64,000 nucleotides of DNA from Pseudomonas mandelii. Its GTDB lineage: Bacteria; Pseudomonadota; Gammaproteobacteria; Pseudomonadales; Pseudomonadaceae. Position numbers and translations under genes: made by a program. Below the pieces are notes generated by a model. That model saw only the letters and a program-made list of their open reading frames with translations. It had not been told where the DNA came from and did no database searches. Below, one piece after another: positions 18,792 to 60,945 of this stretch. The stretch's first letter is position 1, and each line of letters opens with the position of its first letter. The DNA is taken from positions 16,138 through 80,137 of the forward strand of contig NZ_NMOJ01000050.1 in the NCBI RefSeq assembly GCF_002251635.1. Direction: 5' to 3'.

Positions 18792-18798
18792 TACGAAC
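18792..18798. repeat. Target-site duplication, left copy
   Basis: TACGAAC directly precedes the IS21-family element and recurs at 21404-21410. Seven bases is within the range known for IS21 insertions. Confidence 0.9.
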
Positions 18799-21288: not shown

Positions 21289-21403
21289 ACTGATCACCCT
21301 GTGTTCTCCTGCTCAAAAATTGAGCAGAAGCAGTTGAACACCTGGGTCAGTTTTCAGTCGGCAGAACAGCCTCTACTGGGTCAGTTTTCGGTCAGCGGCA
21401 ACA

Positions 21404-21410
21404 TACGAAC
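21404..21410. repeat. Target-site duplication, right copy
   Basis: TACGAAC, identical to 18792-18798. Reading on from here resumes the thsA frame (YERYH). Confidence 0.9.
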
Positions 21411-45646: not shown

Positions 45647-47407
45647 CTACTTACTGCTCTTCTGTAGAGCAATTTGGGTATCAGAGCCTAACTGCGGCTC
45701 GGTAGGCAGCAGACTGAAATCCCGCAGGCTCCGTGGATCGTGAGGGTTGCCAATCAGCATTCGCGTTGGTTTGAATCCAGCGTTCACGATGCTTTTTGCA
45801 GGATCGAATTCATCGAACCGCAGCCCCGCAAGATCCACCCAGCTATGAATAAAGTGCGATGTACTGTAAGGGCGCGCTAGGTACTCAAGGGGCTCCACCA
45901 TCGCACCTTGTACTGACTTCCAGCTGGGCGATTTCCACACAATGAAGGGCACGGTATACATCGGCCGTGTCGGGGCTGCTTCATTACGACCCAAGACATC
46001 CGGAGCGACAGGGTCGTAGACAGACTCTCCGTGATCGGACAGGTACAGCAGAAAGCCGTTGGGGTCGGTTTCACTGAATCGCTTGATCAGCGACGACACT
46101 ACGTAATCGTTGTAGCGTACGGCATTGTCATAGGCGTTGTAGAACGCCAACTGGCTTTGTGTAACGTTGGCCGGCACCCCTGTTCGATCCTTGAAATAGT
46201 CGTACGGCTCAGGGTAGCGGTACTTGTAGCTCATGTGCGTACCGAGCAGGTGAACCACAATCAGCTTTCGCGGGGCATCGTCGTCCAACACCTTTGAGAA
46301 GGGTTCAAGCACATCCTCATCGTACTGGCTGGTCTGGTTCTGGTCACGATTGTTGTTCAGGTACGTCTGCTCATCAGCCTGCTTCGAGAACAGCGTTAAC
46401 ATGGTGTTGCGCTTGGTCATGGTCTGCTGATTGGTGATCCAAAAGGTTTTGTAGCCGGCTTGCTTCATCACGCTGATCACCGTCGGAGTGCTAAGGAAAA
46501 GTTCCGGATGCTCCTCGTCTGCAAACGTCAGAACCTGCTCCAGCGTCTCGATTGTGTAGGGCCGCGGTGCAATGACGTGATCGAACACCTCCAATTGACC
46601 TCGCAGTTGATCCAGGTTTGGCGTGGTCTGCCGGGAGTAGCCATACAGACTCATGCGCTGACGGTTAGTTGATTCTCCGATGACCAGCACCAGCGTTGAG
46701 CGCTGTCCGGCATGGATATCGGAGAGGTTCTTCAACGGAGGTATCTGCGCCTGTACAGTCAGCATTTTCGACATTTCATCCAGTTGCTGAAGGTACTGGT
46801 GATAACCAACGACCATTTGCCATAGCGCCGCAGCCTCAATGTTTTCTTCGAATTTGGAGATCGCAAGGCTTAGTGTTGGGCGCTTGCGCAACTGATTGAC
46901 CGCATTGAAACCTGCCCCCACTACGACGAACATCGCGCAACACACAACGATCGCGCTGCGAGACAGGTATGCGGGCCGAACACGAGTCCAGAGCGCCAAC
47001 CCGCCAATGCTATAGGCGGCGAGCACGCTAACAATTGACCAGGAGAAATAGTGCCCCAAATATTCGGACGACTCCTGCATGTTCGAATCAAACATGATGA
47101 AAATTACGCTTTGGGAAAACTCCTGACCGTATATCAAAAAGTAAACCAAGCCTGAGAGCGACGATGCCCAGAGGACAATGCCGATCAGCCCCCCCAGTAC
47201 CCGCGCTCTGGCTGGGAAAAGGATCAATGGAATCAACCACAGCAGCGTGACCATCGATGCCTGAATCATTCCTTTCCAACCTGCCACACCTGCATGAACA
47301 ATCAGCAGTTGCGTCACCCCTGAGAAGTACCAAAAAAAAATGAAACTCCAGATTAGACCAGGCCAATCTGTAGGTTGCCGGACTGAATCAGATTTCTTCG
47401 CGCTCAT
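45647..47407 (-). CDS. CptA/EptA-type phosphoethanolamine transferase
   Basis: 586 residues from the ATG at 47407 (GAGGG five bases upstream). Five N-terminal membrane helices, then a periplasmic sulfatase-fold domain: VLVIGESTNRQRMSLYGYSR near 240, APRPYTIETLEQVLTFADEE with the probable nucleophile threonine, and the metal site YLSDHGESVY near 455. These features are CptA-like. The enzyme transfers phosphoethanolamine from phosphatidylethanolamine to a lipid or sugar at the outer face of the inner membrane. At the end of the sphingolipid arm it may decorate a ceramide head group or lipid A; which one is not shown. Confidence 0.9.
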   Translation of the reverse strand: MSAKKSDSVRQPTDWPGLIWSFIFFWYFSGVTQLLIVHAGVAGWKGMIQASMVTLLWLIPLILFPARARVLGGLIGIVLWASSLSGLVYFLIYGQEFSQSVIFIMFDSNMQESSEYLGHYFSWSIVSVLAAYSIGGLALWTRVRPAYLSRSAIVVCCAMFVVVGAGFNAVNQLRKRPTLSLAISKFEENIEAAALWQMVVGYHQYLQQLDEMSKMLTVQAQIPPLKNLSDIHAGQRSTLVLVIGESTNRQRMSLYGYSRQTTPNLDQLRGQLEVFDHVIAPRPYTIETLEQVLTFADEEHPELFLSTPTVISVMKQAGYKTFWITNQQTMTKRNTMLTLFSKQADEQTYLNNNRDQNQTSQYDEDVLEPFSKVLDDDAPRKLIVVHLLGTHMSYKYRYPEPYDYFKDRTGVPANVTQSQLAFYNAYDNAVRYNDYVVSSLIKRFSETDPNGFLLYLSDHGESVYDPVAPDVLGRNEAAPTRPMYTVPFIVWKSPSWKSVQGAMVEPLEYLARPYSTSHFIHSWVDLAGLRFDEFDPAKSIVNAGFKPTRMLIGNPHDPRSLRDFSLLPTEPQLGSDTQIALQKSSK

Positions 47408-47537
47408 GAAACCCTCTTTGTATTCAAACAACGTCCCTCAGCACCACCCTCGCTGCAGGTGCCGGATCACGTCGATGTTTCGAGAAGAACAGCAGTACAT
47501 GCCGACTGTTTAAACAGCCCCTATCGCAAGCGAACGA

Positions 47538-48269
47538 TTAGGCACCGTTCATCATTTGCCTGATCAGATCCAAACACCTGCTCTGAACTTCAGGGAGAGG
47601 CAGCTTCGCGTCGACATCAACGATTCGCGCGCCGCCGAAACGCAGCAACGGTGTCGCATCCACTTTTCTTTTGATCAACTCTGGGATGTGATCAGGCTTG
47701 CGCGCCAAAGCAGTTTCCACGTCAATATTCAAACGAATCACCAGGGTGGGTCGGTAACGAGCCATGTGCTGATATAAAGCAAACTCATCAATAGCGAGCA
47801 AAGCCGTCAAATAACCACGTGGTCGCGCTGCGCTAAGACCCGGTCCATCGTAAAAACCAGATATCTCTACTTGCGGATAGCGATCACAGATGATCAGCCC
47901 GGCCTTTTTACGCACATTCAGCATCTGCTTGAACCGACGAGCCCGCATCCTGGAAAAGACGTAAATGGTCAGCGCAGTGAAGAGACCGGGAATGCGTTCT
48001 TCCACGGTACGTGCTTGCAGCGCTTTGGATGACAAACTGCGCTCTAATATAGGGCCTATCAGTGGCCATGCTCGAATCTTCAATCCGATTGAGCCGGAGC
48101 CAAGCCCGAGATACAAATAGGTTGCTCCATCGCCTTTCAAGGCGTCGCACAAATAGGACGCGATCGTGGTTTTGCCCGCTCCGTCAGAACCGATAATGGC
48201 AATCAAAGGTGCTGCTGAGCGGTGGCGTTCTCTGGACGGAATGTAAAACTTGGAATCATTACCAGGCAT
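47538..48269 (-). CDS. Thymidylate-kinase-like P-loop kinase, paralogue 1
   Basis: 243 residues. Walker A IIGSDGAGKTTIAS at 25-38, the DR motif LIICDRYPQVE, an arginine-rich lid-like segment ALARKPDHIPELIKRK. The length and the DRYPQ motif follow the thymidylate kinase fold, but the substrate loop differs from true Tmk, so the phosphoacceptor is unknown. It sits 7 bp after its paralogue in the sphingolipid operon. A role in phosphorylating a head-group precursor is inference. Confidence 0.8.
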   Translation of the reverse strand: MPGNDSKFYIPSRERHRSAAPLIAIIGSDGAGKTTIASYLCDALKGDGATYLYLGLGSGSIGLKIRAWPLIGPILERSLSSKALQARTVEERIPGLFTALTIYVFSRMRARRFKQMLNVRKKAGLIICDRYPQVEISGFYDGPGLSAARPRGYLTALLAIDEFALYQHMARYRPTLVIRLNIDVETALARKPDHIPELIKRKVDATPLLRFGGARIVDVDAKLPLPEVQSRCLDLIRQMMNGA

Positions 48270-48276
48270 AAATCAC

Positions 48277-49083
48277 TCAACCATTTTCTAAATGAGGAGA
48301 CACAGCTGCTTTTGCCCGTGCGATGACTTCCTCAAGAGGCAAGCTGCTATCCAAATCCAGAATGGGTGCACCTTGGTATTCGAGCTGCGGAACACTTGCG
48401 ATTTTCAGTGCGAGAGACTCATAACGATGATCCGGTTTGCGCGCAAACGCGGTTTCCAGGTCAACGTTCAAGCGGATGACAAGATCCGGTCGGTAGCTGA
48501 TCATGTAGGCGTAAAGCATCCGTTCACACCCAGCGAGAAAGCGAACAAATCCGTTGCGATGCTTGACCTTCAGAAGTCCCGGACCATCGATCTTCATGTT
48601 CGCCACTGCAATCTGGGGATAGCGATCAGCAACAACAGCAATCCCGCGGCGACGAAGCGCCATCATCTTTCGGTATCGCCTCCATCGCCGAACAGACAAT
48701 AGAAAAACTACTAAGGCAACGAGTGTGCTCGGCCCTTTCCCAGTACTACGAAATGAAGAGTTACTGCGAGCGGAATTCGCAACAATCAAACGTCCGATGG
48801 CGGGGCCCACCAACGGCCATTTCACCACCGCTTCACCCAATGATTTGGACTGGATACCCAGGTGACAACTCTGCGCGTCCCGTGATTCTTTTATCCAGGC
48901 AAGAACAGCGTCGGACACAGTAGATTTGCCGGCACCATCGCACCCCACGAAAGCAATCAGTGGTGCCAGTTTGCCTGGTAAAACATCTGAATGAGGCGTT
49001 TGAGGGTATACAACCTCATCTTGAATATCCCGCTTCGTATCCTTGCCAGCCACCGTCTGTTTTTTATGGATTGTGCTGCTCAT
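48277..49083 (-). CDS. Thymidylate-kinase-like P-loop kinase, paralogue 2
   Basis: 268 residues, with a 40-residue hydrophilic N-terminal extension before Walker A FVGCDGAGKSTVSD (45-58). It shares AVVADRYPQIAVAN, DLVIRLNVDLETAFARKPDH and the PLEEV tail with paralogue 1, so they form a diverged pair that may make a heterodimer or act on successive substrates. Follows the ABC exporter by 39 bp. Confidence 0.8.
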   Translation of the reverse strand: MSSTIHKKQTVAGKDTKRDIQDEVVYPQTPHSDVLPGKLAPLIAFVGCDGAGKSTVSDAVLAWIKESRDAQSCHLGIQSKSLGEAVVKWPLVGPAIGRLIVANSARSNSSFRSTGKGPSTLVALVVFLLSVRRWRRYRKMMALRRRGIAVVADRYPQIAVANMKIDGPGLLKVKHRNGFVRFLAGCERMLYAYMISYRPDLVIRLNVDLETAFARKPDHRYESLALKIASVPQLEYQGAPILDLDSSLPLEEVIARAKAAVSPHLENG

Positions 49084-49122
49084 TGAAGGTTCTCCACCTC
49101 GATCATTGGGGGCAGTACGGAG

Positions 49123-50904
49123 TCACTCATTACTACTGAATGTCTCGTTCGTCGTCGCTGTAAAATTGAAGACGCTCGTTACCCGCCCATCCCTCACCTG
49201 CATGACCCGGTCAGCTAGTTCGATCAGGCGAGGTCGGTGAGAAACGGCGATGATGGTGATCTCTGGCGTCAGTGCTTTAAGGGATGTGCAGATATCGAAC
49301 TCCGATTCGGGATCAAGCGCACTAGTCGCCTCATCGAGAATCAGGAGGCGCGGACGATGAGCCAGAGCGCGGGCAATCACGATGCGCTGACGCTGCCCGC
49401 CGGAGAGTTTTCCGCCGCGCTCACCGACGACAGAATCCATACCATTGGCAAGGCTCTGTACGAAGTCCCATGCTCCTGCCTGGCGCAGTGCCCGTTCTGC
49501 GTCCTCGCGCGTCAGCGCCGGTTCACCTAGCGTAACGTTCGCGAACACGCTGTCATGCAACAAAAGGGTTTCCTGAGTGACGTAGCCAATCAAGCGGCGC
49601 CACTTACGGCGATCGAGGTCATTCAGGGAGGTGCCGTCAACACGTATTGTTCCTGCCTGAGGATTCAGCAATACGCAAAGCAGGTCGAGTATGGTGGTCT
49701 TACCCGCTCCAGAAGGTCCAACCAGCGTGGTCATCGTTCCGACTTCAAATGAAAAGGATGTCTTTTCAAGAATCGTGCGTTGCTCGTAGGTGAACGACAC
49801 GTTGTCGAAATCGATGTGTTGGTGAAGCGTGGGCTCACCATTACCGCCTTGAGGTTCTACTTGGGATTCAGCAGTCTCTACCGCACGACGTAATGCCCAG
49901 AATGCACTCTCCTGCCCCGCCATACGGTGATATCGCTGTTGCGCCTTGTGCATTAGGCCAAGCACGCGAACGACCATAAAGATCAGCACCATCACCGATG
50001 ACAACGGTAACTGCCAGACCACTAAACCTGCGTAGAGCCCGGCAGCCGCGAGGATGGCTAACAAGGGCTCCTGCAGGGCACGCAGTGTCTCCCGGCTGGT
50101 CACCTCTTTTTCCATCGCCGCATTTAGCTCGGTGGCTTGGTGTCGCAACAGAGAGTCGGCGATGTCTTCTCGTGCCATGGCCTTCAAAGGCTTAACCGAT
50201 CCGAGCGTGTCGGTGAGGCTCACCAATAAATCCTTCATGAGGCGAGTCTGACTTTTACCTGCGCGACGCGATGTTTTGACCAACCCTCGAAGACCAATAA
50301 GAATGGTCAACCCCACAATCAGGCATACCGCCGCCGCCTGCCATGACACGATCAGCGCAATGGCTGCGTAAGCCACAGCCTGGATCGATAGTGCAAGCAT
50401 ATTGGCTGCGTGTTCATACGCAGTGGACGCTCGGTAGGCTTCCGTCGCCACCGCATTGGCCAACGCCCCACCTGGTTGATGCAGGTAGTACTCCCACCGG
50501 CTTTCCAATGTGGCGTTGATCAGATCCACCCGCAGGTCAGTGGCCACACGTGCAACGGTGTACCCCACTTGACGGTTGGCCAAAAGGATCAAAAAACTGC
50601 TGATTGCCATGCCGACGACAATGACAATCAACAATGCCGGTATCGTCGGCTCCAGCCCCATGCTCTGCAGTGCGTCGATAACGCGCACACCAAATTTCGA
50701 ATGAGCGTTGTCGCCCAACATCACCGAAACTAGTGGCAACATGGTGGTCAGGCTCACGCTCTCCACCATTCCAGCGATCACGAGACTAAACAACATCAAG
50801 GCGGTACGTCCCGGGTAGGATCGACCAAACGCAAAGATAATTCGCATAGCACCCACAGGTAATAACAGGCTAAGCGCCTTCAATATTTTTGTCGCACGCC
50901 CCAA
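49123..50904 (-). CDS. ABC exporter (fused membrane and ATPase domains), MsbA-like
   Basis: About 593 residues if started at the TTG at 50904; the ribosome site there is weak, and an ATG (MRIIFAFG) near 50847 is an alternative. Residues 1-330 hold six membrane helices; the ATPase has Walker A LVGPSGAGKTTILDLL, signature KLSGGQRQRIVIARAL, Walker B PRLLILDEATSALD and the switch SHRP. The last is slightly unusual (SHR as in type-IV exporters). Placed between spt and the kinases, it is a candidate flippase for ceramide-type lipids. Confidence 0.9.
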   Translation of the reverse strand: MGRATKILKALSLLLPVGAMRIIFAFGRSYPGRTALMLFSLVIAGMVESVSLTTMLPLVSVMLGDNAHSKFGVRVIDALQSMGLEPTIPALLIVIVVGMAISSFLILLANRQVGYTVARVATDLRVDLINATLESRWEYYLHQPGGALANAVATEAYRASTAYEHAANMLALSIQAVAYAAIALIVSWQAAAVCLIVGLTILIGLRGLVKTSRRAGKSQTRLMKDLLVSLTDTLGSVKPLKAMAREDIADSLLRHQATELNAAMEKEVTSRETLRALQEPLLAILAAAGLYAGLVVWQLPLSSVMVLIFMVVRVLGLMHKAQQRYHRMAGQESAFWALRRAVETAESQVEPQGGNGEPTLHQHIDFDNVSFTYEQRTILEKTSFSFEVGTMTTLVGPSGAGKTTILDLLCVLLNPQAGTIRVDGTSLNDLDRRKWRRLIGYVTQETLLLHDSVFANVTLGEPALTREDAERALRQAGAWDFVQSLANGMDSVVGERGGKLSGGQRQRIVIARALAHRPRLLILDEATSALDPESEFDICTSLKALTPEITIIAVSHRPRLIELADRVMQVRDGRVTSVFNFTATTNETFSSNE

Positions 50905-50959
50905 CCTGATGACTCAGCTCAAAAGCGGGCTCGCTATCAACCAAACAACCCGACCACCG

Positions 50960-52153
50960 TCAACCGACCAAGCTCGCCGTTGAACGTAGCATCGTGAAAG
51001 CATGGATAATCTGGTCGATCTGATCAGGGGTGTGGGCAGCACTGACGCTGCATCGAACCAGCGTCACTCCCGCTGGGGTCGCAGGCGGCAGTACCAAATT
51101 GACGTAGACACCGTGCTCGATCAGCGCATGCCAAAACTGCAGGCCTTGTTCTTTTGTACCCACCATGACGGGTACGACCGGGCTGACATTCGGGCCTAAC
51201 GAATAGCCGAGCTTCTCCAGCCCGTGGTACAGACGATGGGCATTGCTCCAAAGCTGATCTCGAAGCTCGGGACGTGTCGCGATCGAACGCAGCGCTGACC
51301 GAACCGACGCGATGGCCGAAGGCGACGGTGATGCCGTAAAGATGTAAGGTCGACTTGCATAACGCAGTATTTCCATACTGCTGCTCTTGCCTGCTGCAAA
51401 ACCGCCAATCGCTGCCAGACTTTTGCTAAAGGTGCCCAGCAGAATGTCGACCTCGCTCTCTACACCGAGTGCTTCGGACAGACCTCGTCCATTGGCCCCC
51501 ATAACTCCGAAGGAGTGGGCTTCGTCAACAAGCAGATATCCGCCAAGCCTTCCCTTGATCTCAACGATTTCTCTGAGCGGCGCGGTATCTCCCAACATGC
51601 TGTAGATGCCCTCTACGATAATCAGCGCATGTTTGGCACGTTCGCCCAGGCGAAGCATCCGTCGTTCGAGATCCTTGGCATCGTTATGCTGAAACCGGAT
51701 AATTTCAGCGCCGCCCAGCGCGCACGCGTCATAGATACTGGCATGACAATCTGCATCCAGAAGCACTACCTCTCCTGGCCCAGCTAACGAACCGATCACC
51801 CCCAAGTTCGCTACGTATCCCGTGGAAAACACGATGACTGAGGGCCGATTCAGAAAGGCCGCAAGCTCAGCCTCTAGCGCCATATGACCACCATAGCTGC
51901 CGTTAGCCATTCGCGACCCTGTGGTGCCCGTACCGTCTATAGCCAGTGCCTGTTGAGCGGCCTCAATGGCGCCAGGATCAAAAGTCAGCCCCAGGTAATT
52001 GTTCGTTCCTGCGAGGATGACGTTTTGATCGCCTATGCGCCCCTCGGTAGGCGAATACACCGCATCAATACACGTACCAAATGGACTCGGCGTCGTATTC
52101 TGCAGAGTAGAACGCTCGGCTGCCAGGCGGATGAAACGGTCATACAACCCCAT
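50960..52153 (-). CDS. spt: Serine palmitoyltransferase
   Basis: 397 residues from the ATG at 52153 (GGAG seven bases upstream), overlapping the acyl carrier protein gene by 14 bp. It belongs to the alpha-oxoamine synthase family of PLP enzymes: NYLGLTFDPGAIEAA, GTGTTGSRMANGSYGGH, the stacking histidine in DADCHASIYD, DEAHSFGVMGANGRG and the PLP lysine in LGTFSKSLAAIGG (about residue 240). Relatives make 8-amino-7-oxononanoate, 2-amino-3-ketobutyrate, aminolevulinate or 3-ketosphinganine; the cluster of dedicated ACP, reductase, acyl-ACP synthetase and ceramide synthase identifies serine palmitoyltransferase. It commits the pathway by condensing serine with an acyl thioester. Confidence 0.88.
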   Translation of the reverse strand: MGLYDRFIRLAAERSTLQNTTPSPFGTCIDAVYSPTEGRIGDQNVILAGTNNYLGLTFDPGAIEAAQQALAIDGTGTTGSRMANGSYGGHMALEAELAAFLNRPSVIVFSTGYVANLGVIGSLAGPGEVVLLDADCHASIYDACALGGAEIIRFQHNDAKDLERRMLRLGERAKHALIIVEGIYSMLGDTAPLREIVEIKGRLGGYLLVDEAHSFGVMGANGRGLSEALGVESEVDILLGTFSKSLAAIGGFAAGKSSSMEILRYASRPYIFTASPSPSAIASVRSALRSIATRPELRDQLWSNAHRLYHGLEKLGYSLGPNVSPVVPVMVGTKEQGLQFWHALIEHGVYVNLVLPPATPAGVTLVRCSVSAAHTPDQIDQIIHAFTMLRSTASLVG

Positions 52154-52400
52154 GGCTTTTCTCCACATAGGCCACCACAGAACTAGCCAACTGTTGTGGG
52201 GTTCTGACGTCCATCAATATGTTGATGGGGATGGACAGGTCGTACTCGTCTTCCAACTTCATCAATAGATCCATCATTTTGACGGACTCCAAACCCAAGT
52301 CGTTGACCAAGTCACTCTCGGCGCCCACTTCTTCCGATAACGGAACGATTTCTCGCAGGCATCTCAGGACATTTTTTAGAGTCGTGTCTAGCGTAACCAT
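52140..52400 (-). CDS. acpR: Acyl carrier protein dedicated to sphingolipid synthesis
   Basis: 86 residues from the ATG at 52400 (AAGAGG six to seven bases upstream); a TTG two codons earlier is also in frame. Motif DLGLESVKMMDLLMKLE carries the phosphopantetheine serine (Ser39). An acidic helix follows, as in AcpP. It sits between spt and the reductase and probably presents the acyl chain to Spt after loading by the synthetase at 53346. The Caulobacter equivalent is AcpR. Confidence 0.88.
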   Translation of the reverse strand: MVTLDTTLKNVLRCLREIVPLSEEVGAESDLVNDLGLESVKMMDLLMKLEDEYDLSIPINILMDVRTPQQLASSVVAYVEKSHGVV

Positions 52401-52434
52401 GGCCAACCTCTTGGACGATTGAATTGACGCGTTT

Positions 52435-53346
52435 TTAGAACAGCCGGTCTTTCAGCGCGCGACGCAGCTTTATCTGGGGTACCCACCCAATGGCATCGGT
52501 AATGACAGCGTTGCTGCATGTCCAATCGTCGTGAACGAGCTCTTTGACCTTGCTGGTCGTAAGCATCGGCTCACCCGGAATCAGGTAGGACAAAATGAGG
52601 TTCAGTCGCGCCAGGCTGTTCAGCGCAACATGGGGAATAGTCATCTGACGTACAGGTGCCTTGCGTACATCAACCCCAATACACGCCAAGCCATTCCAAC
52701 TGTATCCACCCAACGCACCGTCACTGATCTCATACATCGCCGGCCTCGCCAACGGAGTAGTGATCCATTGCAATACGGCAGCGGTGAGATCAAACACATG
52801 GACGAAACTCAGGCGCGAATGGCCCGCACTCAACCTGATCAACAACCCACGCAGCAACCAGGAAAACAAAGGTTGCAACTCTCGATCGCCCGGGCCATAC
52901 ACAGCGGTAGGCCTGAAAATACTGACTTCGATCTTTCCGGCCCCATGAAGGACTTCTTGCTCCGCGTAATACTTGGAATTCGAGTACCAGGAAAGCTCGG
53001 GATGACGTGCTGCCAGGGACGACATATGCAGAAATCGCTCACAGTCTCCGCCGACACGTGCGGCTTCCATGACTCGACGGCTACCGTCGACGTTGGTGAC
53101 ATGAAAGACACACTCCTCTCGCCCTCTGACGGCTCCCGCACAGTGAACAACCGTGCGTGCGCCCATCACCAGCTCAGACAGAGACCGTGAATTTTCAAGC
53201 GAGCCTCGCACCCAATAAATTCCGTTGCGTAGACCTGACTGCGTCCGACTCAACGCACGAACATTGAACCCTTGGGTTACCAACATTCGCCCAATCAGGC
53301 TGCCGATGAATCCGCTCCCTCCGGTCAGGGCCACTGTCGGCACCAT
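52435..53346 (-). CDS. cerR: Ceramide/3-ketosphinganine reductase, extended SDR family
   Basis: 303 residues; the ATG at 53346 shares a base with the TGA of the synthetase gene (TGATG), so translation is coupled. NAD(P)-binding VALTGGSGFIGSLIGRML, conserved STVVHCAG-like segment ARTVVHCAGAVRGRE, and the catalytic YxxxK in SWYSNSKYYAE, followed by FRPTAVYGPGDRE. This is the epimerase-type SDR fold. In Caulobacter the equivalent gene (CerR, in the same position next to spt, acpR and aasR) reduces the ketone, there after N-acylation. Substrate by analogy. Confidence 0.82.
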   Translation of the reverse strand: MVPTVALTGGSGFIGSLIGRMLVTQGFNVRALSRTQSGLRNGIYWVRGSLENSRSLSELVMGARTVVHCAGAVRGREECVFHVTNVDGSRRVMEAARVGGDCERFLHMSSLAARHPELSWYSNSKYYAEQEVLHGAGKIEVSIFRPTAVYGPGDRELQPLFSWLLRGLLIRLSAGHSRLSFVHVFDLTAAVLQWITTPLARPAMYEISDGALGGYSWNGLACIGVDVRKAPVRQMTIPHVALNSLARLNLILSYLIPGEPMLTTSKVKELVHDDWTCSNAVITDAIGWVPQIKLRRALKDRLF

Positions 53347-55097
53347 CACGCGGAACCTGCGACGGCGAAGGTTTCCTGGCGCACCACCAGCTGACTGAGA
53401 AAGCGCTTACGCGCTTCAGCTCGCGCAGGTTTGCCTGATGAGGTGCGAGGAATGCTATGTGGTGGAACGAGCTCGATCATGGGTGAGAGCCCGAACTCAC
53501 TGTGGATCTTGGCAAACAAGGTGTGCAGTAGTCGTTCGCGCGCCTCTTGAGCGACGATCCGACATTGCACCTGTACTACTACCGACGTCTCCCCGTTGTC
53601 TTGCACAATGAACACGATGGCGTCTCCCGGCCTGACCTCGGGCTCTGATTCGGCGACCAGCTCGATATCCTGGGGCCAGATGTTCCTACCCCGGATAATG
53701 ATCAGGTCCTTCTTGCGCCCGGTGACATACAAGTCACCGTCAAGCAGATAACCCAGATCACCGGTGTCCAGCCATCGTGTAACTTCCAGCTGCTGTCTCG
53801 ACTCCTGATCCTCAAAGTACCCTGCCATGAGGCTTGGGCCAGAAATGACAATTCGACCGATGCATCGCTCGGCGAGTGCATGGCCAGTGTCATCTAGCAC
53901 CTGTAGTTGATGACCCGGCAGAGGGCGACCACAATTAACAAATGTGCTGACGGCCGCGGATTGTTCAGTGGCTTTAACTGCCCGCCCTTCTAGTTCCAGA
54001 ATGTCCCGGTCCACTCGATCAACCTGCCCGCCAGCTCCAGGCGCTGCGAAGCTGACGGCTAACGTATTTTCGGCCAGGCCATAACATGGCATGAATGCAC
54101 TTGCTTTAAAGCCCGCAGGAGCAAAGTGCTCGGCGAAGCGGTTCAGCGTGGAAATCGCAATGGGCTCCGCGCCTACACCAGCCACCCGCCACTTCGAAAG
54201 ATCAAGGCTTTCGACCTCTGCAGAACTGCAGCGTCGTACGCACAAGTCGTACCCAAAAGGCGGTGCGACAGACACCGTACCTCTGTTACGACTCATCAGA
54301 TTCAACCATTGCTTGGGGCGCATGGCGAAATCTCGTGTCTGCAGATAGTCAACCGATAGCTGAGTGGCGACCGGAGTCAGGACGAAACCAACCAACCCCA
54401 TGTCGTGGTAGTACGGCAACCACGAAATGCAACGATCGTGGGGCTGTAGCCTGATTCCATGAAGACTGATGCCTCGAAGATTAGCCATTACTGACTGCTG
54501 CGTTACGACCACGCCCTGAGGAAAGCGGGTACTACCTGAAGTGTACTGCAGGTAGGCAATATCATCCGGTTGCGGACGCACGAGTTTGACGTCGGACATG
54601 GCGAGCGCTTCGACCGAATCAAAGTCACCAGTGAATTTCAGTGCGGAGGCATCTACAGCCTCATTCACATACGGTAACCACTCTCGGCCGCCGACAATTG
54701 CCGAGGGAGAGCAACTGGCCAGCAATCCTCGCAGCTTTTCAACGTACGCATGATGGTGTCCTACCCCTGCGGGAATAGGCAGTGGCACCGGAATGAGACC
54801 TGCGTATTGACATGCAAAAAAAGCTTTAACGAAGCAGGGTGTCGTGTCTGCGATGAGTGCTACACGATCTCCCTTCCTCAGACCAATACCTAATAACTTC
54901 TTGGCCGCGGCTACGGCTCGAGCCTGCAATTGTCTGTACTCAACAACGGCCACTAGATGACAACGTCGGTCGTAGAAATTCATGCCCGTCTGGCCAAGCG
55001 CCGCGTAGTCAAGCGCTTCAGCCAATGAAGAAAAATCTGCAAATCGTTGAGGCAGTGAACGTACAGCGCTTGTCTCTGACAAATAGAGAACGGTCAT
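53346..55097 (-). CDS. aasR: Acyl-ACP synthetase / fatty acyl-AMP ligase
   Basis: 583 residues, ANL superfamily. P-loop YLQYTSGSTRFPQGVVVTQQ near 182-200, FAAL-type WLPYYHDMGLVGFVLTP near 222-238, MPCYGLAENTLA, the ATP motif TGDLGYLLDGDLYVTGRKKD, and the C-terminal lysine region SIPRTSSGKPARAEARKRFL. FAALs make acyl-adenylates and pass them to ACP. As the first gene of the leftward arm it most likely charges the ACP encoded at 52140 for Spt, as AasR does in Caulobacter. Confidence 0.87.
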   Translation of the reverse strand: MTVLYLSETSAVRSLPQRFADFSSLAEALDYAALGQTGMNFYDRRCHLVAVVEYRQLQARAVAAAKKLLGIGLRKGDRVALIADTTPCFVKAFFACQYAGLIPVPLPIPAGVGHHHAYVEKLRGLLASCSPSAIVGGREWLPYVNEAVDASALKFTGDFDSVEALAMSDVKLVRPQPDDIAYLQYTSGSTRFPQGVVVTQQSVMANLRGISLHGIRLQPHDRCISWLPYYHDMGLVGFVLTPVATQLSVDYLQTRDFAMRPKQWLNLMSRNRGTVSVAPPFGYDLCVRRCSSAEVESLDLSKWRVAGVGAEPIAISTLNRFAEHFAPAGFKASAFMPCYGLAENTLAVSFAAPGAGGQVDRVDRDILELEGRAVKATEQSAAVSTFVNCGRPLPGHQLQVLDDTGHALAERCIGRIVISGPSLMAGYFEDQESRQQLEVTRWLDTGDLGYLLDGDLYVTGRKKDLIIIRGRNIWPQDIELVAESEPEVRPGDAIVFIVQDNGETSVVVQVQCRIVAQEARERLLHTLFAKIHSEFGLSPMIELVPPHSIPRTSSGKPARAEARKRFLSQLVVRQETFAVAGSA

Positions 55098-55658
55098 AGG
55101 TCTGAGCTCTTTATCAGGCGCACTACTAAATTTCGCGCTAAGTTTTAGGTCACTACATGCATGGGAGAAAACTTCGCCCTACGCAATTAGCGAACAATCC
55201 AAAATCATGTCACCAGCCGACAAGTCATATAGATATCTGAAAATTTCTAATTCGTGCGCCTAGGCATTCCTGCTCTAAAAATGCATAAAGTCAATCCACA
55301 GCAGCTGATAAGCACCGTCATTTAAGACCCACCTTCAAACATATCATACGAAAAAAAACAGCTTAGCCACCGATGACAGACCAGCCAACTTATGATGCAA
55401 CCTCAACGAAGGCACATCATGTTCAACGCATGGCTCACCTAGCAATCCGCACACCTGAAAGCAACCGAAAACCGGGCATTTCAGAGGAGTTTCATTCTCC
55501 TCGCTGGTTCTATGGCTTATTCGCTTTGTCGTGTTATATATAGCCGTAACGAAATATTTCAGCAACAGATAAATACAGTTTTTTATCGACCGAGCTCAAT
55601 GGTTCGCAGACACGCGAATTGACTAACCATCCATTAATGCAGAAAACAGATAACAGTC
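55098..55658. promoter_or_regulatory. Divergent promoter region of the sphingolipid cluster
   Basis: 560 bp, AT-rich, between the leftward synthetase arm and the rightward ceramide-synthase arm, so both promoters should be here. A hairpin GAGGAG-TTTCATT-CTCCTC lies at 55484-55502, and a TTGTCG...TATATA stretch near 55526-55545 could be a rightward promoter. No regulator gene adjoins the region. Confidence 0.5.
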
Positions 55659-56801
55659 ATGGACAAAATGAACCCTTCAATAAAAACAACAATGGTTAAA
55701 GATCAGCAAGATCTTGATATCTTTATTTCGCTTCCTGGCATGCTATATAAGAATGATCCTTGTTGGATTGAGCCGCTGCACTTAGAACGGCGTGAACATC
55801 TGTCAAAAAGGAATCCAACTTCCGAACATATTACTTGGCAAGCTTGGATCGCAACGTGCGAAGGCGTACCTGTGGGTCGCATCCTCGCGCAGATCGATAC
55901 GCTGCACCAAGAGCTTCATGGTGCAGATACCGGTCATTTCGGGATGCTTGATGCAATTGACGATCCAGAGGTGTTTCTCAGTTTATTCACCACCGCGGAA
56001 GCATGGTTGCAAGCGCGTGGAGTCAAGCAAATTACCGGGCCATTCAGCATGAATATCAATCAAGAGAGCGGATTACTGGTTGAGGGTTTTGATACGCCTC
56101 CTTCGGCCTTCATGAATCATCACCATCCTTACTACCAAAGGCACCTGGATACTCTAAATTACCGCGAAGCCGTCGACCTTCTAGCCTACTGGATGCGTAC
56201 CGACGAGCTGAATTTCCCTGCAGGGCTTCAGAGGATGATGAATCGCGAACGCTCTCGAATTCGCATCAGGATGCTAGACAGGTCAAGGTTCAACGAAGAG
56301 ATGCAAACGCTGCGCGATATTTTCAACGATGCCTGGGAGAACAACTGGGGCTTCGTACCCTTCACCGAAAGAGACTTCGGCGACATGGGCAAGCAACTGA
56401 AATTCCTGGTGCCGAATGACCTCATCTACATCGCTGAAATAGACGATGAGCCCTGTGCATTTATCGTCGCCATGCCGAACATCCATGAAGCAATCGCACC
56501 CTTGAAGGGCAAGCTTTTGCCTTTTGGTTGGCTCCGGTTGCTATGGAAATTGAAGATCGCCGGCACTCGAACGGCACGAGTTCCATTGATGGGCGTCAGG
56601 CAACGTTATCAATTCAGTAGGCAGGGGCCGGTATTGGCGTTGCTGCTGATAGAGGCGCTCAAAGCTCCCTTTGTAAGACGCAAACTCGATGCTTTGGAGA
56701 TGTCATGGATTCTTGAAACGAATACCGGCATGCGCACGATTCTTGAACGCATTGGTGCGACAGACTACAAGCGGTATCGACTCTATGAAAAACGTATCTG
56801 A
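55659..56801 (+). CDS. bcerS: Bacterial ceramide synthase (GNAT-like acyltransferase)
   Basis: 380 residues. Characteristic features of the bCerS-type N-acyltransferase family: NDPCWIEPLHLERREHLS near the N-terminus, ITGPFSMNINQESGLLVEGF, PPSAFMNHHHPYY, NNWGFVPFTERDF, FLVPNDLIYIAEID, and the C-terminal ETNTGMRTILERIGATDYKRYRLYEK. These proteins fold as double GNAT domains. In Caulobacter bCerS acylates the amino group of the sphingoid intermediate using acyl-CoA. Position at the head of the rightward arm, opposite spt, supports the same role. A second ATG lies three codons downstream and may be used. Confidence 0.87.
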   Translation: MDKMNPSIKTTMVKDQQDLDIFISLPGMLYKNDPCWIEPLHLERREHLSKRNPTSEHITWQAWIATCEGVPVGRILAQIDTLHQELHGADTGHFGMLDAIDDPEVFLSLFTTAEAWLQARGVKQITGPFSMNINQESGLLVEGFDTPPSAFMNHHHPYYQRHLDTLNYREAVDLLAYWMRTDELNFPAGLQRMMNRERSRIRIRMLDRSRFNEEMQTLRDIFNDAWENNWGFVPFTERDFGDMGKQLKFLVPNDLIYIAEIDDEPCAFIVAMPNIHEAIAPLKGKLLPFGWLRLLWKLKIAGTRTARVPLMGVRQRYQFSRQGPVLALLLIEALKAPFVRRKLDALEMSWILETNTGMRTILERIGATDYKRYRLYEKRI

Positions 56802-57594
56802 GCCGGTGCGCTTTTCAGCGCTAGTACTGGCGGGTGATCGACAAGCCAATGATCCTGTAGCTGCTATGAGTGGTTTGGGGTGCAAGGCCCTCACGAAAGT
56901 CCAGGGTATACCGATGCTTCATCGCGTACTGGCTGCCTTGAGAGCTAGCGATCGCGTTGCTGAAATTACTTTGATGGGACCTTCGCGCCAGGCTTTAGAA
57001 AATGATCTGCGCATGCACACATTATTGGGACGCAGAGAAGTTTTCGCTCTGGAACCTGCCTCCACGCCCAGCGCCAGTGCGCTACGGGGACTACTGCATG
57101 TAAAAGCCCGCCCCGTATTTGTCACGACAGCTGACCATGCACTTCTGCGCCCGGAAATCATTGACTATTTCCTTGATCGCTCACGCGAGAGTGGTTGCGA
57201 CGTCTCTGTAGCTTTAACGCCTCTGGAAACGGTGACGACGATGTTTCCTGGCCATCGTCGCACCGCAATCAAACTCAAGGGTGGTCCTTATTGCGGCAGC
57301 AATATGTTCGCGTTCATGACGCCGCAAAGCGAGAAGCTCGCTGCATTCTGGCGATCTGTCGAAGAGCAGCGCAAAAGCCCGAGAAAGGTGATCGCAAGCG
57401 CCTTGGGGCTGAGCGCGACCTTGAAGTACCTCATGGGGACGCTATCGCTCGAACAGGCGCTGGAGCAGGTCTCATCACTGGTGGGATTGAAGATCGGCGC
57501 TGTCCTCATGCCATTTGCGGAAGCTGCCGTGGACATCGACTCCATGAGTGATCACGCGCTCGTGGAGCGATTTTTATTGGAGCGAGAGCGTTGA
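56785..57594 (+). CDS. MobA-like nucleotidyltransferase, possible phosphoglycerate cytidylyltransferase
   Basis: 269 residues from the ATG at 56785, overlapping the ceramide synthase gene by 17 bp. NTP-transferase fold: FSALVLAGDRQANDP, CKALTKVQGIPMLHRVLAAL, VFVTTADHALLRPEII and FPGHRRTAIKLKGGPYCGSNM. The overall pattern is that of the MobA/CobY-type nucleotidyltransferases. In Caulobacter a cytidylyltransferase of this kind (CpgD) supplies the phosphoglycerate unit for ceramide diphosphoglycerate, which would fit here, but this assignment rests on context and memory. Confidence 0.7.
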   Translation: MKNVSEPVRFSALVLAGDRQANDPVAAMSGLGCKALTKVQGIPMLHRVLAALRASDRVAEITLMGPSRQALENDLRMHTLLGRREVFALEPASTPSASALRGLLHVKARPVFVTTADHALLRPEIIDYFLDRSRESGCDVSVALTPLETVTTMFPGHRRTAIKLKGGPYCGSNMFAFMTPQSEKLAAFWRSVEEQRKSPRKVIASALGLSATLKYLMGTLSLEQALEQVSSLVGLKIGAVLMPFAEAAVDIDSMSDHALVERFLLERER

Positions 57595-57730
57595 TGCGAA
57601 AGCTCCTTTAACAGCCTGAAAATTCAACGCCTCTTACGTTGTGACGCTCCGTCGAATCTACCCAGCCGAATGTCGCCACGGAATGGCAATAGGAACACCC
57701 CATTGCGACGCCTGACCACAAGGTCCAAAT

Positions 57731-58804
57731 ATGCTTTTGATCGAGCGCTACATCATTGCTGAAATTCGTCGCCCTGTATCGATCATGGTGGGCATTTTGA
57801 CGTTTGTATTTGCAAGCTATTCAGCGGAGCGCTACCTGACACAAGCAGCAAACGGTACCCTAGCTTTGCAATCAGTGATCGACATGGTGGTTTACAAGGT
57901 CATCATTGCGCTTGAAATGCTAGTGCCGGTCGCGCTGTACGCATCGGTGGCCATTGCCATGGGCAGGCTGTACCACGACTCAGAGATCACCGCCATTCTG
58001 GCCTCCGGTGCGAGCCCATTAAGACTTTATCGTGCCATCGCGCTGATCTCCATTCCGATCGCAATTGCCGTGACGGCTCTTTCAATCTACGGCCGCCCCT
58101 GGGCATATACCCAGACATATCGGTTGGAGCAGGAGTCCAAGACTGATCTGGACGTGAATCATCTGCTGTCTCAACGATTCAACCTCAACCCCGACAACGG
58201 CCGAATGATTCTCGCAGAACAAGTTGACCATGAATCAGGCAACCTGAAAAACGCGCTCATCTACGATCCGGGCGAAGGGAAGACTCGTATCTTTCGCTCC
58301 AATTTTGCGAGAGTGGCCGACCCTAATCCGGATGATCCGATAATCGCAATGACGAACGGGACATCGTACACACTGCAGCATGCCGGAACGAAAGACATCA
58401 CATTCCTTTTCAATACTATGGCGCTGCACCTGAAGCCCATCGAAGCGGAGGAAGACAACAAGCGCAAAGCAACATCAACAGTGCTGTTGAACGCATCCCC
58501 CCTGCCGAAGGACAAAGCGGAATTACAGTGGCGTGAAACGCGCGGTATCAGTGCATTTCTCCTCGCACTACTCGCTGTCCCCTTGAGCCGAAGCGCGCCT
58601 CGCAAAGGCCGTTTTTCCACCTTGCTACCCGTCAGCATGCTCTTCGTAATCATCTTTTACGCCGGCAATATCTTTCGGACGTTAGTGGCAAATACCACCA
58701 TCGCTCTTACACCCGGCCTCTGGCTGATGCCGTTACTCATGGCATTGGGAGTTCTTGCGTTCATGGCGCGAGATCTGTCTCTGTTGCGACGGCGCCCACA
58801 ATGA
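57731..58804 (+). CDS. LptF-like permease (YjgP/YjgQ family)
   Basis: 357 residues with six membrane helices: MLLIERYIIAEIRRPVSIMVGILTFVF start, ALEMLVPVALYASVAIAMGRL, ILASGASPLRLYRAIALI, a periplasmic beta-jellyroll between helices 3 and 4 (about 125-265), then LLAVPLSRSAPRKGRFS. This is the LptF fold that takes lipid from the inner membrane onto the Lpt bridge. The chromosomal LPS genes are not nearby; it lies within the sphingolipid arm and overlaps its LptG-like partner as ATGA. A dedicated sphingolipid extraction role is inferred. Confidence 0.85.
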   Translation: MLLIERYIIAEIRRPVSIMVGILTFVFASYSAERYLTQAANGTLALQSVIDMVVYKVIIALEMLVPVALYASVAIAMGRLYHDSEITAILASGASPLRLYRAIALISIPIAIAVTALSIYGRPWAYTQTYRLEQESKTDLDVNHLLSQRFNLNPDNGRMILAEQVDHESGNLKNALIYDPGEGKTRIFRSNFARVADPNPDDPIIAMTNGTSYTLQHAGTKDITFLFNTMALHLKPIEAEEDNKRKATSTVLLNASPLPKDKAELQWRETRGISAFLLALLAVPLSRSAPRKGRFSTLLPVSMLFVIIFYAGNIFRTLVANTTIALTPGLWLMPLLMALGVLAFMARDLSLLRRRPQ

Positions 58805-59880
58805 AAATAGCGAGCTTTTACCTGATTCGTAATGTCCTGATCGGGTTCGTCGCGGCAGTAGCATTGCTACTCCCCTTGTTCACCACTTTTGACTTGATCA
58901 ATGAGCTGGAGGATGTAACCCCCAATGGCTATCGATGGAATCAGGCGCTAATGGTTGTACTGATGACACTGCCCAGACGCGCTGTTGATCTGAGCCCCTT
59001 TATTGCGTTGCTGGGGGGTATCGTCGGATTAGGCCAACTAGCAACCACGCAAGAATTGACTGCGATGCGCGCAGCCGGCGTCTCAATCGTGCGTATCGCA
59101 GCCACAACCGTTTTAGCTGGTTTGATTTTCGTCTTAATGATGGGAGCCATGGATGAATGGGTTGCATCGCCATTGCAGCAGGGCGGGATGTTCATCAGAA
59201 ACGAAGCCATGGCAGCCTCAGGTCAGCCAGCAAGCCCCAATGGCAGCATCTGGGCGCGACGAGGCGATGAGGTGGCGCGAATCGGCACGATGGCACGACA
59301 CAACACTCCAATCAGCATTGAGATCTTTCGATACAGCTCAGACATGAGACTTACGTCTTACGTGTTCGCCGACAGTGCTGATATCCGTCCAGGCGGAACC
59401 TGGTTGCTCAAGAACGTCCAGATCAAGGAATGGCAGCAAACCGATGAAAGAGTTAGTCAGCAAGATCACCTCGTATGGCAGTCGGTGTTTTCAGAACAAC
59501 GCCTGAATGACCTGACCCTGCCTATCGACAGCTTCTCCATCAGACAACTTTATCGCTACATCAAGTTCTTGGCCGATTCTGATCAACCTACGGCCGAGTA
59601 TGAAATGGCGATCTGGCAAAAACTCGGACGTCCCGTTCTGACACTGGCGATGATCCTTTTTGCTGTGCCCTTTACGTTCGTTCACCAGCGCTCTCCCGGG
59701 CTAGGCGGGCGCCTGGCGATAGGAGCCGTATTAGGCCTGCTGATCTACGTATGCAATCAAATCATAGCCAATCTCGGTTTGTTGTTCGCAGGCAACCTAA
59801 TGCTCACTACGTTACTGCCATCGTTCGCTCTGCTTGGCATCGGCATGATGCTCGTACATCGATTCGACCGGGTGCGCTGA
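58801..59880 (+). CDS. LptG-like permease (YjgP/YjgQ family)
   Basis: 359 residues. The ATG overlaps the LptF-like stop codon by four bases. Six membrane helices with FYLIRNVLIGFVAAVALLLPL, the LptG-type loop LPRRAVDLSPFIALLGGIVGLG and LTAMRAAGVSIVRIA, a periplasmic jellyroll, and ILFAVPFTFVHQRSPGLGGRLAIG. It forms a pair with the LptF-like protein. No LptB-like ATPase gene is seen in the window, so the chromosomal LptB would have to serve it. Confidence 0.85.
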   Translation: MKIASFYLIRNVLIGFVAAVALLLPLFTTFDLINELEDVTPNGYRWNQALMVVLMTLPRRAVDLSPFIALLGGIVGLGQLATTQELTAMRAAGVSIVRIAATTVLAGLIFVLMMGAMDEWVASPLQQGGMFIRNEAMAASGQPASPNGSIWARRGDEVARIGTMARHNTPISIEIFRYSSDMRLTSYVFADSADIRPGGTWLLKNVQIKEWQQTDERVSQQDHLVWQSVFSEQRLNDLTLPIDSFSIRQLYRYIKFLADSDQPTAEYEMAIWQKLGRPVLTLAMILFAVPFTFVHQRSPGLGGRLAIGAVLGLLIYVCNQIIANLGLLFAGNLMLTTLLPSFALLGIGMMLVHRFDRVR

Positions 59881-59955
59881 TGAACATTTTCACAATACTT
59901 TCAGTGAACCGGCACGACTGCTTCCCCCCATCCATCACTTCTGCAGGTGATTCGA

Positions 59956-60945
59956 ATGATTGATCCGATAGCGCTCCCGAGGCACATTGGTGTCGTACTC
60001 AACCCCCTGAGCGGACATGTCAGGCGAAATCTCAAAAAACTTCGAAGACTCGTATTACAAATACCGCAGTCCACGGTAATCGAAGCTTCAAACCCTGCTG
60101 AAATCGCACAGGCGTTAGACATTTTCAACCTCGGGGTGAACGATCTATTAGTAGTTATTGGTGGAGACGGCAGCCTTCAGGCCGCGCTTACCGCCTCACT
60201 CAGGCGCTCTATGGAGTTGGCGCCCTTCGTTCTGGCGCTACCTGGCGGCACAACCAACATGAGTGCGATTGATCTGGGAGTTACCATGACACCGGCGTCC
60301 ACGCTCGAGGCACTGATCAGCTGGCTCGCGGGAGATGCCCCCCCGCCCTCGGTCAGCATTCGATCAATCCTACAGGTCTCCGATGCCAGTTCTACCCTTC
60401 CGCAATTCGGGTTGTTTTTTGGAGCAGGTGCGATCATCGATGGCGTCAAATACTTCCACTCCGAAGTTCGCCCTAAGGGCATCCAAGGCAATTTGGGCCC
60501 TGCCTTCGCGTTTATGCGCATGCTGCTTTCCTTGTTTCGACACAATGAGCAAAGTGTCGCCTCAGCCACCCTGGCCGGCCTGCAACTGCAGCATCAGTAT
60601 CTTTATTCCCCATGGCTACTGATCCTTGCCACTACGCTTGATAAGCTGTTACTCAAGAGCACTCCCTATTGGGGACTGGAGCGCGCGCCGATGCATTTCA
60701 CCGCAATCGCCCACCGCGCACCGCGTCTTCTTTCATCTCTGCCGTTCCTGTTGCGTGGCAAATCCAACGCCGCCATGCAGGACAGCAGAGCATATGTCAG
60801 CCAAAACCTGACTCATGCAGTCATTGATGACCTGAGCGAATATCTGTTGGACGGGGAACTCTTTGCGACCCGAAGTTCGCTATATCTGTCAGCGGACGTT
60901 AGCGCTCGGTTTATCCTATTTGATGACGAGCTACACAATGCGTAG
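59956..60945 (+). CDS. Diacylglycerol-kinase-fold lipid kinase, possible ceramide kinase
   Basis: 329 residues from the ATG at 59956 (AGGTGA six bases upstream). Family motifs: VVLNPLSGHVRRNL (16-20), VVIGGDGSLQAAL (69-73), ALPGGTTNMSA (96-101) and a C-terminal LDGELF. This is the DAGK/sphingosine-kinase/YegS fold. In Caulobacter a member (CpgB) phosphorylates ceramide. Sitting between the Lpt-like pair and the second nucleotidyltransferase-type gene, ceramide phosphorylation is the likely role here, though diacylglycerol or other lipids cannot be excluded. Confidence 0.83.
   Translation: MIDPIALPRHIGVVLNPLSGHVRRNLKKLRRLVLQIPQSTVIEASNPAEIAQALDIFNLGVNDLLVVIGGDGSLQAALTASLRRSMELAPFVLALPGGTTNMSAIDLGVTMTPASTLEALISWLAGDAPPPSVSIRSILQVSDASSTLPQFGLFFGAGAIIDGVKYFHSEVRPKGIQGNLGPAFAFMRMLLSLFRHNEQSVASATLAGLQLQHQYLYSPWLLILATTLDKLLLKSTPYWGLERAPMHFTAIAHRAPRLLSSLPFLLRGKSNAAMQDSRAYVSQNLTHAVIDDLSEYLLDGELFATRSSLYLSADVSARFILFDDELHNA

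Follow-up and report, generated by a model that had tools for sequence, protein, structure and literature searches.

The 64,000-nucleotide stretch of Pseudomonas mandelii DNA analyzed here (contig NZ_NMOJ01000050.1, positions 16,138 to 80,137; "the window" in what follows) contains genes resembling those for ceramide synthesis in Caulobacter, and it raises the question of which sphingolipid, if any, this bacterium is equipped to make. A first-pass annotation had recognized five ceramide genes at 50960-56801 in two divergent arms, and these are intact open reading frames (ORFs) found at the proposed positions or a few bases off them. That annotation covered ~5.8 kb of a ceramide cluster that comprises 14 genes over 16.2 kb (45647-61858). 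The nine further genes, which include a lipid kinase, an exporter and headgroup genes, hold the main difference from the published pathway. We consider it probable that the cluster is chromosomal and horizontally acquired, and that it makes and exports a ceramide-based phosphosphingolipid whose headgroup end differs from that of Caulobacter.

All 14 genes are intact ORFs. From the point of divergence, the minus arm runs aasR-cerR-acpR-spt and continues with an ABC exporter gene, tmkA, tmkB and a cptA-like gene. The plus arm consists of cerS, a MobA-like nucleotidyltransferase gene, lptF2, lptG2, a cpgB-like gene and a cpgC-like gene. The features, and the evidence by which each was named, are as follows:

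45647..47407, minus strand: cptA-like, phosphoethanolamine transferase of the CptA subfamily, second copy in the genome (PRK10649, PF00884)
47538..48269, minus strand: tmkB, P-loop kinase-like protein of the YghR/S/T family (motifs; thymidine monophosphate (dTMP) kinase matches weak and below cutoff)
48277..49083, minus strand: tmkA, P-loop kinase-like protein of the YghR/S/T family (thymidylate-kinase fold by AlphaFold/Foldseek)
49123..50904, minus strand: ABC exporter with fused membrane and ATPase domains, candidate sphingolipid flippase (ABC_membrane and ABC_tran)
50960..52168, minus strand: spt, serine palmitoyltransferase (SPT) (NF047599, PDB sequences)
52140..52406, minus strand: acpR, dedicated acyl carrier protein (PF00550; GLES site)
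52435..53349, minus strand: cerR, extended short-chain dehydrogenase/reductase (SDR), 3-oxo-sphinganine or oxo-ceramide reductase (PF01370; motifs; operon position)
53346..55097, minus strand: aasR, acyl-AcpR synthetase of the fatty acyl-AMP ligase (FAAL) type (PRK09192)
55659..56801, plus strand: cerS (bCerS), ceramide N-acyltransferase of the YghO family (identity to E. coli YghO)
56785..57594, plus strand: cerS-linked nucleotidyltransferase, MobA-like, in the position of Caulobacter CC_1153 (PF12804)
57731..58804, plus strand: lptF2, second LptF permease (TIGR04407, 272.5 bits, cutoff 230)
58801..59880, plus strand: lptG2, second LptG permease (TIGR04408, 294.7 bits, cutoff 240)
59947..60945, plus strand: cpgB-like lipid kinase, a ceramide kinase in Caulobacter (PF00781; GGDG)
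60923..61858, plus strand: cpgC-like protein with a fold of the Tam41/CDP-diacylglycerol (CDP-DAG) synthase type (AlphaFold/Foldseek/VIA-align)

Ceramide-synthesis genes

The pyridoxal phosphate (PLP)-dependent enzyme encoded by spt exceeded the cutoff of the SPT equivalog model NF047599 of NCBIfam (610.8 bits, cutoff 500) and fell below those of the bioF (331 vs 426.45) and glycine C-acetyltransferase (305.2 vs 460) models. Its ten best matches among PDB sequences were all SPTs (best E 3.6e-119), with the best KBL at E 4.8e-64. The motifs GTFSKS, DADCHAS and VDEAHS, containing the Lys, His and Asp that we take to be catalytic, align with an SPT structure. Searches of the genome found a single other homologue, which has 34% identity and is placed outside the SPT clade in the tree. 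Membership of KBL/BioF, a possibility that the first-pass annotation had wanted checked, was rejected on the basis of these cutoffs, the PDB ranking and the tree. Contiguous with spt on the minus strand are acpR (PF00550, 44.9 bits, cutoff 20.8) and the FAAL-type aasR (PRK09192 fatty acyl-AMP ligase, 840.6 bits, cutoff 600). CerR matched PF01370 (69.4 bits, cutoff 20.9), has the motifs GGSGFIG and YSNSK, and is 52% identical to the product of the gene in the cerR position of E. coli PN43.

The gene cerS lies on the opposite strand from aasR-cerR-acpR-spt and thus forms a separate transcription unit. Neither Pfam nor NCBIfam has a family that its product matched at E <= 0.001; an E. coli protein annotated as YghO shares 63.8% identity with it. 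YghO is listed as the N-acyltransferase of the ceramide set of E. coli BL21 (PMC9386255). The relatives examined from outside the genus are 31-68% identical, and the enzyme was placed inside the bCerS/YghO family. All nine other sampled genomes of the genus with a close cerS have these five genes in an identical divergent order, so that the arrangement is not due to chance. By homology, the five genes constitute a complete ceramide-synthesis set predicted to give dihydroceramide. The family scores and the CerS-YghO identity bear out the first-pass annotation in its view of a complete set in Caulobacter-like order, and its statement that five such genes are required for ceramide in Caulobacter agrees with PMC11324152.

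The distribution of these genes was surveyed in samples of 398 genomes from the genus and 398 from the phylum. CerS matches at E <= 0.001 were present in 21 of the 398 genus genomes: ten were close (66-100% identity, window included), eight had 24-27% identity over nearly the full length and three were partial. The latter 11 were left out of the bCerS count. Within the phylum sample, the CerS profile matched in 43 of 398 genomes, and a scan of contigs for CerS relatives beyond the genus gave the best 80 loci, among which there was no Caulobacter. The eight distant genus matches (loci L039-L046) are GNAT-like proteins encoded near an acyl-AMP-ligase-like gene and represent a different cluster; in L040, a class III aminotransferase-like fusion and a ketosynthase-like ORF were also recognized by eye. 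In two further loci (L048:7970-17946 and L049), a weak GNAT match adjoins an alpha-oxoamine synthase 29% identical to SPT. In L048 this pair is preceded by LuxR-like and acyl-homoserine-lactone-synthase-like ORFs and followed by SDR-like and ketosynthase-like ORFs (by eye). The locus is possibly another sphingoid-like or quorum-linked lipid cluster.

Sphingolipids had been described in the first-pass annotation as a lipid class unexpected for the genus. The genes are indeed uncommon (10/398 genus genomes), but contiguous clusters for ceramide and for CPG2, a ceramide phosphoglycerate (CPG) with a second phosphoglycerate, have already been published for Azotobacter vinelandii and Pseudomonas luteola (PMC11324152). 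Nor does the expectation hold for the lipids themselves, as P. fluorescens MYb115 makes sphingoid lipids by a polyketide synthase (PKS) route (PMC12134224). Ceramide genes in the genus are uncommon and no surprise, and it is not new in kind that Pseudomonas can make ceramide. The part worth following is the headgroup swap, in which Tmk and CptA stand in place of CpgA and CpgD.

Headgroup genes and their distribution

TmkA and TmkB only have a fold in common with thymidylate kinase, as judged from modelling of TmkA. The AlphaFold model of TmkA (predicted local distance difference test (pLDDT) score 82.1) matched thymidylate kinase structures by Foldseek (E 3.0e-9), and both proteins scored far below the cutoff of the dTMP kinase equivalog TIGR00041 (TmkB 36.8 and TmkA 25.5 bits, cutoff 83.25). 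In a 24-row alignment, GxDGxGKxT and RKPDH of TmkB were invariant. The cluster CptA scored above cutoff with PRK10649 (824 bits, cutoff 404) and PF00884, and has GES, TTPN and SDHG motifs, presumably the functional sulfatase-fold motifs of the EptA/CptA family. It was rejected as the strain's only CptA, since all ten genomes with a close cerS have a housekeeping CptA elsewhere; that of the window genome was found as two pieces separated by an in-frame gap without a stop. The copies from the six clusters constitute a clade of their own (100/100 support), separate from the ten housekeeping ones, and such a dedicated paralogue argues for a dedicated substrate.

The cpgB-like kinase matched PF00781 (40.6 bits, cutoff 23.6) and has GGDG at residue 72 and no CxxxCxxC, a combination also described for CpgB of Caulobacter, the likeness being judged from that description. 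The CpgC-like protein had no Pfam, NCBIfam or PDB sequence match. Its AlphaFold model (24-row alignment, pLDDT 86.8) resembled Tam41 by Foldseek (E 1.6e-9, TM scores 0.50/0.55) and by VIA-align (Z 19.6, root-mean-square deviation 3.0, 227 residues aligned), the next family having Z 7.6. This fold fits the CDP-DAG-synthase domain reported for CpgC/CC_1161 (PMC11324152). The cerS-linked nucleotidyltransferase (PF12804, 56.7 bits, cutoff 27) lies 3' of cerS in all ten genus clusters, and its family and place would fit CC_1153. It was rejected as a candidate CpgD, having no significant similarity to the CpgD-type protein of plasmid pBYT5-2 (blastp E 0.47) and sitting where CC_1153 sits. In all ten genus clusters, that of the window included, the ABC exporter gene adjoins spt. 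Its best NCBIfam models, HepA (280.8 bits, cutoff 725) and MsbA (243.3 bits, cutoff 602), were both below cutoff. Another LptF/LptG pair is encoded elsewhere in the genome (contig C233), and the pair in the cluster is thus a second set, as in Caulobacter.

Two types can be distinguished among the ten genus clusters. Six of them (window, L030-L033 and L037) contain tmkA, tmkB and cptA. The other four (L034, L035, L036 and L038) have none of these and instead carry a CDP-alcohol phosphotransferase gene after lptG2 (PF01066, 40.3 bits for L034), called cpgA here because CC_1159 (CpgA) is described as a CDP-alcohol phosphotransferase (PMC11324152). Whole-genome searches with CpgA of L034 found it once in each of the four genomes, and gave no match at E <= 1e-5 in the window genome and the five other tmk/cptA genomes. 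CpgD is described as a COG1213-type cytidylyltransferase (PMC12275187). As a query for it, we used the pBYT5-2 protein encoded beside cpgA, which is annotated as a phosphocholine cytidylyltransferase and was typed by family description and place. Its relatives adjoin the cerS-linked nucleotidyltransferase in A. vinelandii and others, corresponding to the order CC_1154-CC_1153-CC_1152. A CpgD-type protein was present at 68-70% identity in the four cpgA genomes. The six tmk/cptA genomes had no close one, only nucleoside triphosphate (NTP)-transferase matches at 28-38% identity, mostly partial; the window genome has one such partial match (34%, query residues 9-131). The six genomes are thus without both steps that attach the second phosphoglycerate, and the two gene sets are exactly complementary across the ten clusters. 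In one of the four, P. umsongensis DSM 16611 (L038/L093), there was no cpgB match between cpgA and the cpgC-like gene, and ~3.8 kb separate cerS from aasR.

A similar pattern was seen more widely. Among the 398 genus genomes, tmkA was found with confidence in six, all of which are among the ten with a close cerS. The chance of this overlap is 4e-11 by free draw, a figure that ignores the kinship of these related genomes. One further tmkA match, at 22% identity and with stop codons, lies in a genome without a close cerS. In the phylum sample, all six genomes with strong tmk matches (the window genome included) hold cerS. Across 87 non-redundant cerS loci (window not counted; L085 and L093, from the same genomes as L037 and L038, were left out of counts and trees), tmk was present in 15, cpgA in 34 and both in none, and a CpgD-type protein in 24, none of them with tmk and one (L145) only 29% identical; many of these loci end early, so that absence from them is weak evidence.

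In a tree of SPT (matches with <330 aligned residues dropped), the tmk-type clusters and the enterobacterial ones form one strongly supported clade (100/100), within which two cpgA plasmids are placed on moderately supported branches. The best topology needs two changes between cpgA and tmk (L089, L092 and L143 carried no headgroup label in this test), a pattern that looks as if a headgroup module had been exchanged and then exchanged again. L145, a record titled Klebsiella pneumoniae metagenome-assembled genome, has an SPT far from the other enterobacterial ones on a long branch and is possibly mislabelled or mixed.

Several features of the cluster suggest mobility. Its GC content is 0.532, compared with 0.587-0.610 in five other stretches of the genome. 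The 16 kb to the left of the window have a GC content of 0.599, and the 40 kb to the right are also low (0.478 and 0.523; the assembly is in 251 contigs). Related clusters occur on Pseudomonas plasmids, namely pBYT5-2 (typed conjugative), pPNP1 (typed non-mobilizable; its cerS contains an IS5 element) and a P. veronii megaplasmid. On pBYT5-2 and pPNP1, cpgA and a CpgD-type gene lie ~5-6 kb beyond the cpgC-like gene and tmk is absent; the P. veronii and E. coli PN43 records have tmk and neither cpgA nor a CpgD-type gene. Low GC, patchy distribution (10/398) and plasmid copies of related clusters together support mobility, and the cluster was probably acquired horizontally and is now chromosomal. 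A reading of the window itself as a plasmid was not supported, given the ccmI/ccmF-like ORFs (by eye) to its right and the GC content to its left. Searches of the cluster DNA against plasmids gave only 42-base matches, in two records. The plasmid clusters with cpgA (L159:26808-33187 and L176) combine cpgA and a CpgD-type gene with metallophosphoesterase, glycosyltransferase and Asp/Asn beta-hydroxylase genes, a further headgroup gene set.

Elsewhere in the window, a copy of ISPst3 (IS21 family) at 18799-21407 is 100% identical to copies on many plasmids. Within 18297-22342, it lies between two ORFs that resemble halves of one SIR2-like gene, with TIR-like ORFs beside them (by eye), and an interrupted defence gene is possible. 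A 184-residue carboxymuconolactone-decarboxylase-like protein (by eye) is encoded twice with the same translation (25233-25787 and 26929-27483), and similar ORFs are present at 28711, 29349 and 43724.

Proposed product and its alternatives

From the protein families present, the following pathway can be proposed. AasR would load a fatty acid onto AcpR, and SPT would condense the acyl-AcpR with serine. N-acylation by bCerS and reduction by CerR would give dihydroceramide; the order of these two steps, and the reductant of CerR in the periplasm, are unsettled in the literature (PMC11087976; PMC11324152). The CpgB-type kinase and the CpgC-type protein are a pair needed for CPG in Caulobacter, and since both are present CPG is the expected intermediate. 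TmkA and TmkB may phosphorylate the headgroup in the cytoplasm, after which CptA may add phosphoethanolamine to this phosphate in the periplasm, before export by LptF2/LptG2. The ABC exporter would flip the lipid, and LptF2 and LptG2 would transfer it to the outer membrane. The step assigned to TmkA, TmkB and CptA is suggested by the chemistry of their families and by the complementarity with CpgA/CpgD. It would have a parallel on the lipopolysaccharide (LPS) core, where a kinase adds phosphate and CptA adds phosphoethanolamine.

The product is likely to be a phosphosphingolipid of the outer membrane whose headgroup is a variant one, perhaps phosphorylated by a kinase and carrying a phosphoethanolamine cap. 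More specifically, the lipid might be CPG bearing, where CPG2 has its second phosphoglycerate, a phosphate from TmkA/TmkB with a phosphoethanolamine cap from CptA, which would turn an anionic, polymyxin-binding lipid into a more zwitterionic one. By extension, YghR/S/T, orphan proteins of E. coli, would be sphingolipid headgroup kinases, and the conserved core for synthesis and export in bacterial ceramide clusters would be joined by exchangeable headgroup modules (CpgA and CpgD, or Tmk, whether CptA is present or not). We put this specific version forward tentatively, as a serious possibility that is still somewhat doubtful. Phosphoethanolamine on bacterial sphingolipids is already known (PMC12275187). 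No published description of the tmk/cptA variant was found in a literature search at title and abstract level, with most subscription papers and the supplements of PMC11324152 outside its coverage. The same search found no paper joining ceramide phosphoethanolamine with a phosphoethanolamine transferase and, among the papers listed, none with both yghS/R/T/Q and sphingolipid; yghO appeared with sphingolipid only in PMC9386255.

Several observations weigh against a dedicated Tmk/CptA headgroup step. The thymidylate-kinase fold of TmkA and TmkB names no substrate. The cluster CptA misses the stricter CptA model NF012179 (828.1 of the 900 bits needed) and, as a member of a family that normally acts on LPS, it could do so here. 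In family f50 (genomes G436, G686 and G707), the tmk pairs are distant from cerS, and the tmk stretches examined contained neither an spt nor a cerS match. Three phylum genomes with weaker tmk matches (2e-19 to 2e-37), whose best matches are in frames of >500 residues, two with stops, have no CerS match. On the P. veronii plasmid and in E. coli, tmk occurs without cptA and so does not need it. The names CpgA, CpgC and CpgD are drawn from family, fold and position. Finally, the well-supported branches of the SPT tree alone force only one change between cpgA and tmk, and an independent-pairs test, with one or two pairs, cannot reach significance; with one or two state changes, the complementarity has few independent replicates.

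These points bear differently on the alternatives. The product could be the same as in Caulobacter, either plain CPG or CPG2 made by unrecognised enzymes for the CpgA and CpgD steps, with no new headgroup. The retention of the CpgB- and CpgC-like genes and of the nucleotidyltransferase in the CC_1153 position would fit, as would the weak NTP-transferase relative of the CpgD-type protein, but the six genomes have neither a CpgA homologue at the threshold used nor a close CpgD-type protein, and a dedicated CptA paralogue has no place in the CPG2 scheme; we regard this outcome as unlikely, although it is the most plausible of the alternatives. Slightly less probable again is that ceramide is made and exported while TmkA, TmkB and CptA are mere neighbours that modify LPS or another glycolipid, as the LPS-modifying character of the CptA family and the detached tmk pairs of f50 would allow. 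Against it stand the housekeeping CptA in all ten genomes and the separate clade of the cluster copies, the absence of tmkA from the 388 sampled genus genomes without a close cerS (bar the 22% match with stops), and the presence of related kinases together with spt/cerS both in Enterobacterales and on the P. veronii plasmid.

The island might also be silent or expressed conditionally, with no sphingolipid in ordinary growth. Its low GC and patchy distribution are what such an island could show, and a crude scan of 55000-55750 found no sigma-70-like promoter, an uninformative result as 1.4 were expected in shuffles. All 14 ORFs are intact, however, and five other genomes retain the layout of 14 genes at identities down to 44-54% in some genes, which implies selection; this makes a silent island improbable. 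That the PLP enzyme is an ordinary alpha-oxoamine synthase of the BioF/KBL type, the block making a non-sphingolipid product, can draw on the fold common to SPT, BioF and KBL and on weaker matches to BioF/KBL models, but it is hardly credible in view of the model cutoffs, the PDB SPTs ranking far above KBL and the divergence of the genome's single other homologue found.

A variant headgroup made with TmkA, TmkB and CptA could have consequences for the cell envelope. The CPG2 headgroup of Caulobacter aids the survival of cells lacking LPS (PMC12275187), and polymyxin sensitivity is attributed to it (PMC11324152); a different headgroup would therefore be relevant to the envelope barrier and to the behaviour towards peptide antibiotics. 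The complementarity between CpgA/CpgD and Tmk/CptA provides a testable handle on the role of YghR/S/T and on the assembly of bacterial ceramide headgroups.

Comparison with known systems

The SgaAB system of P. fluorescens MYb115 (PMC12134224) is an iterative PKS pathway for secondary metabolites and has another gene set than the window. A closer likeness is seen in E. coli PN43 (L160), in which spt-acpR-cerR-aasR diverge from yghO and are accompanied by a second LptFG and by yghR/S/T-type kinases, as in the window. Its ceramide cluster, flanked by pitB and the glc genes (L160:1-13122), contains yghO, yghS, yghT and a third kinase gene that is probably yghR. The 23-kb stretch differs in having no CpgB-, CpgC-, CpgA-, CpgD-type or CptA match, and a lipopolysaccharide-biosynthesis-type protein in place of the ABC exporter. 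These genes are widespread in the species: in 5426 complete E. coli genomes, spt was matched in 4088 (in 4047 over at least 80% of its length) and yghS in 4630.

A. vinelandii CA (L095) has the ceramide genes, the ABC exporter and the cerS-nucleotidyltransferase-lptF-lptG-cpgB-cpgC arm in the same order as the window, with SPT 73% and CerS 64% identical. It differs in that cpgA lies between lptG2 and cpgB, a CpgD-type gene follows the cerS-linked nucleotidyltransferase, and no tmk/cptA is present in the stretch examined. The sequence comparison covered P. asuensis and P. duriflava (L080 and L096) in place of P. luteola. The ABC exporter is probably not CC_1166: A. vinelandii carries this ABC gene in its cluster, and according to PMC11324152 it has no orthologue of CC_1166. 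Going by the protein families given in that paper, CC_1168-CC_1152 of Caulobacter crescentus has the same aasR-cerR-acpR-spt order and a separate cerS followed by a nucleotidyltransferase, and both systems have a second LptF/LptG and CpgB- and CpgC-like genes. The window cluster differs from that of Caulobacter in being without CpgA (CC_1159) and the CpgD-type protein (CC_1152) and in adding TmkA, TmkB and a CptA paralogue.

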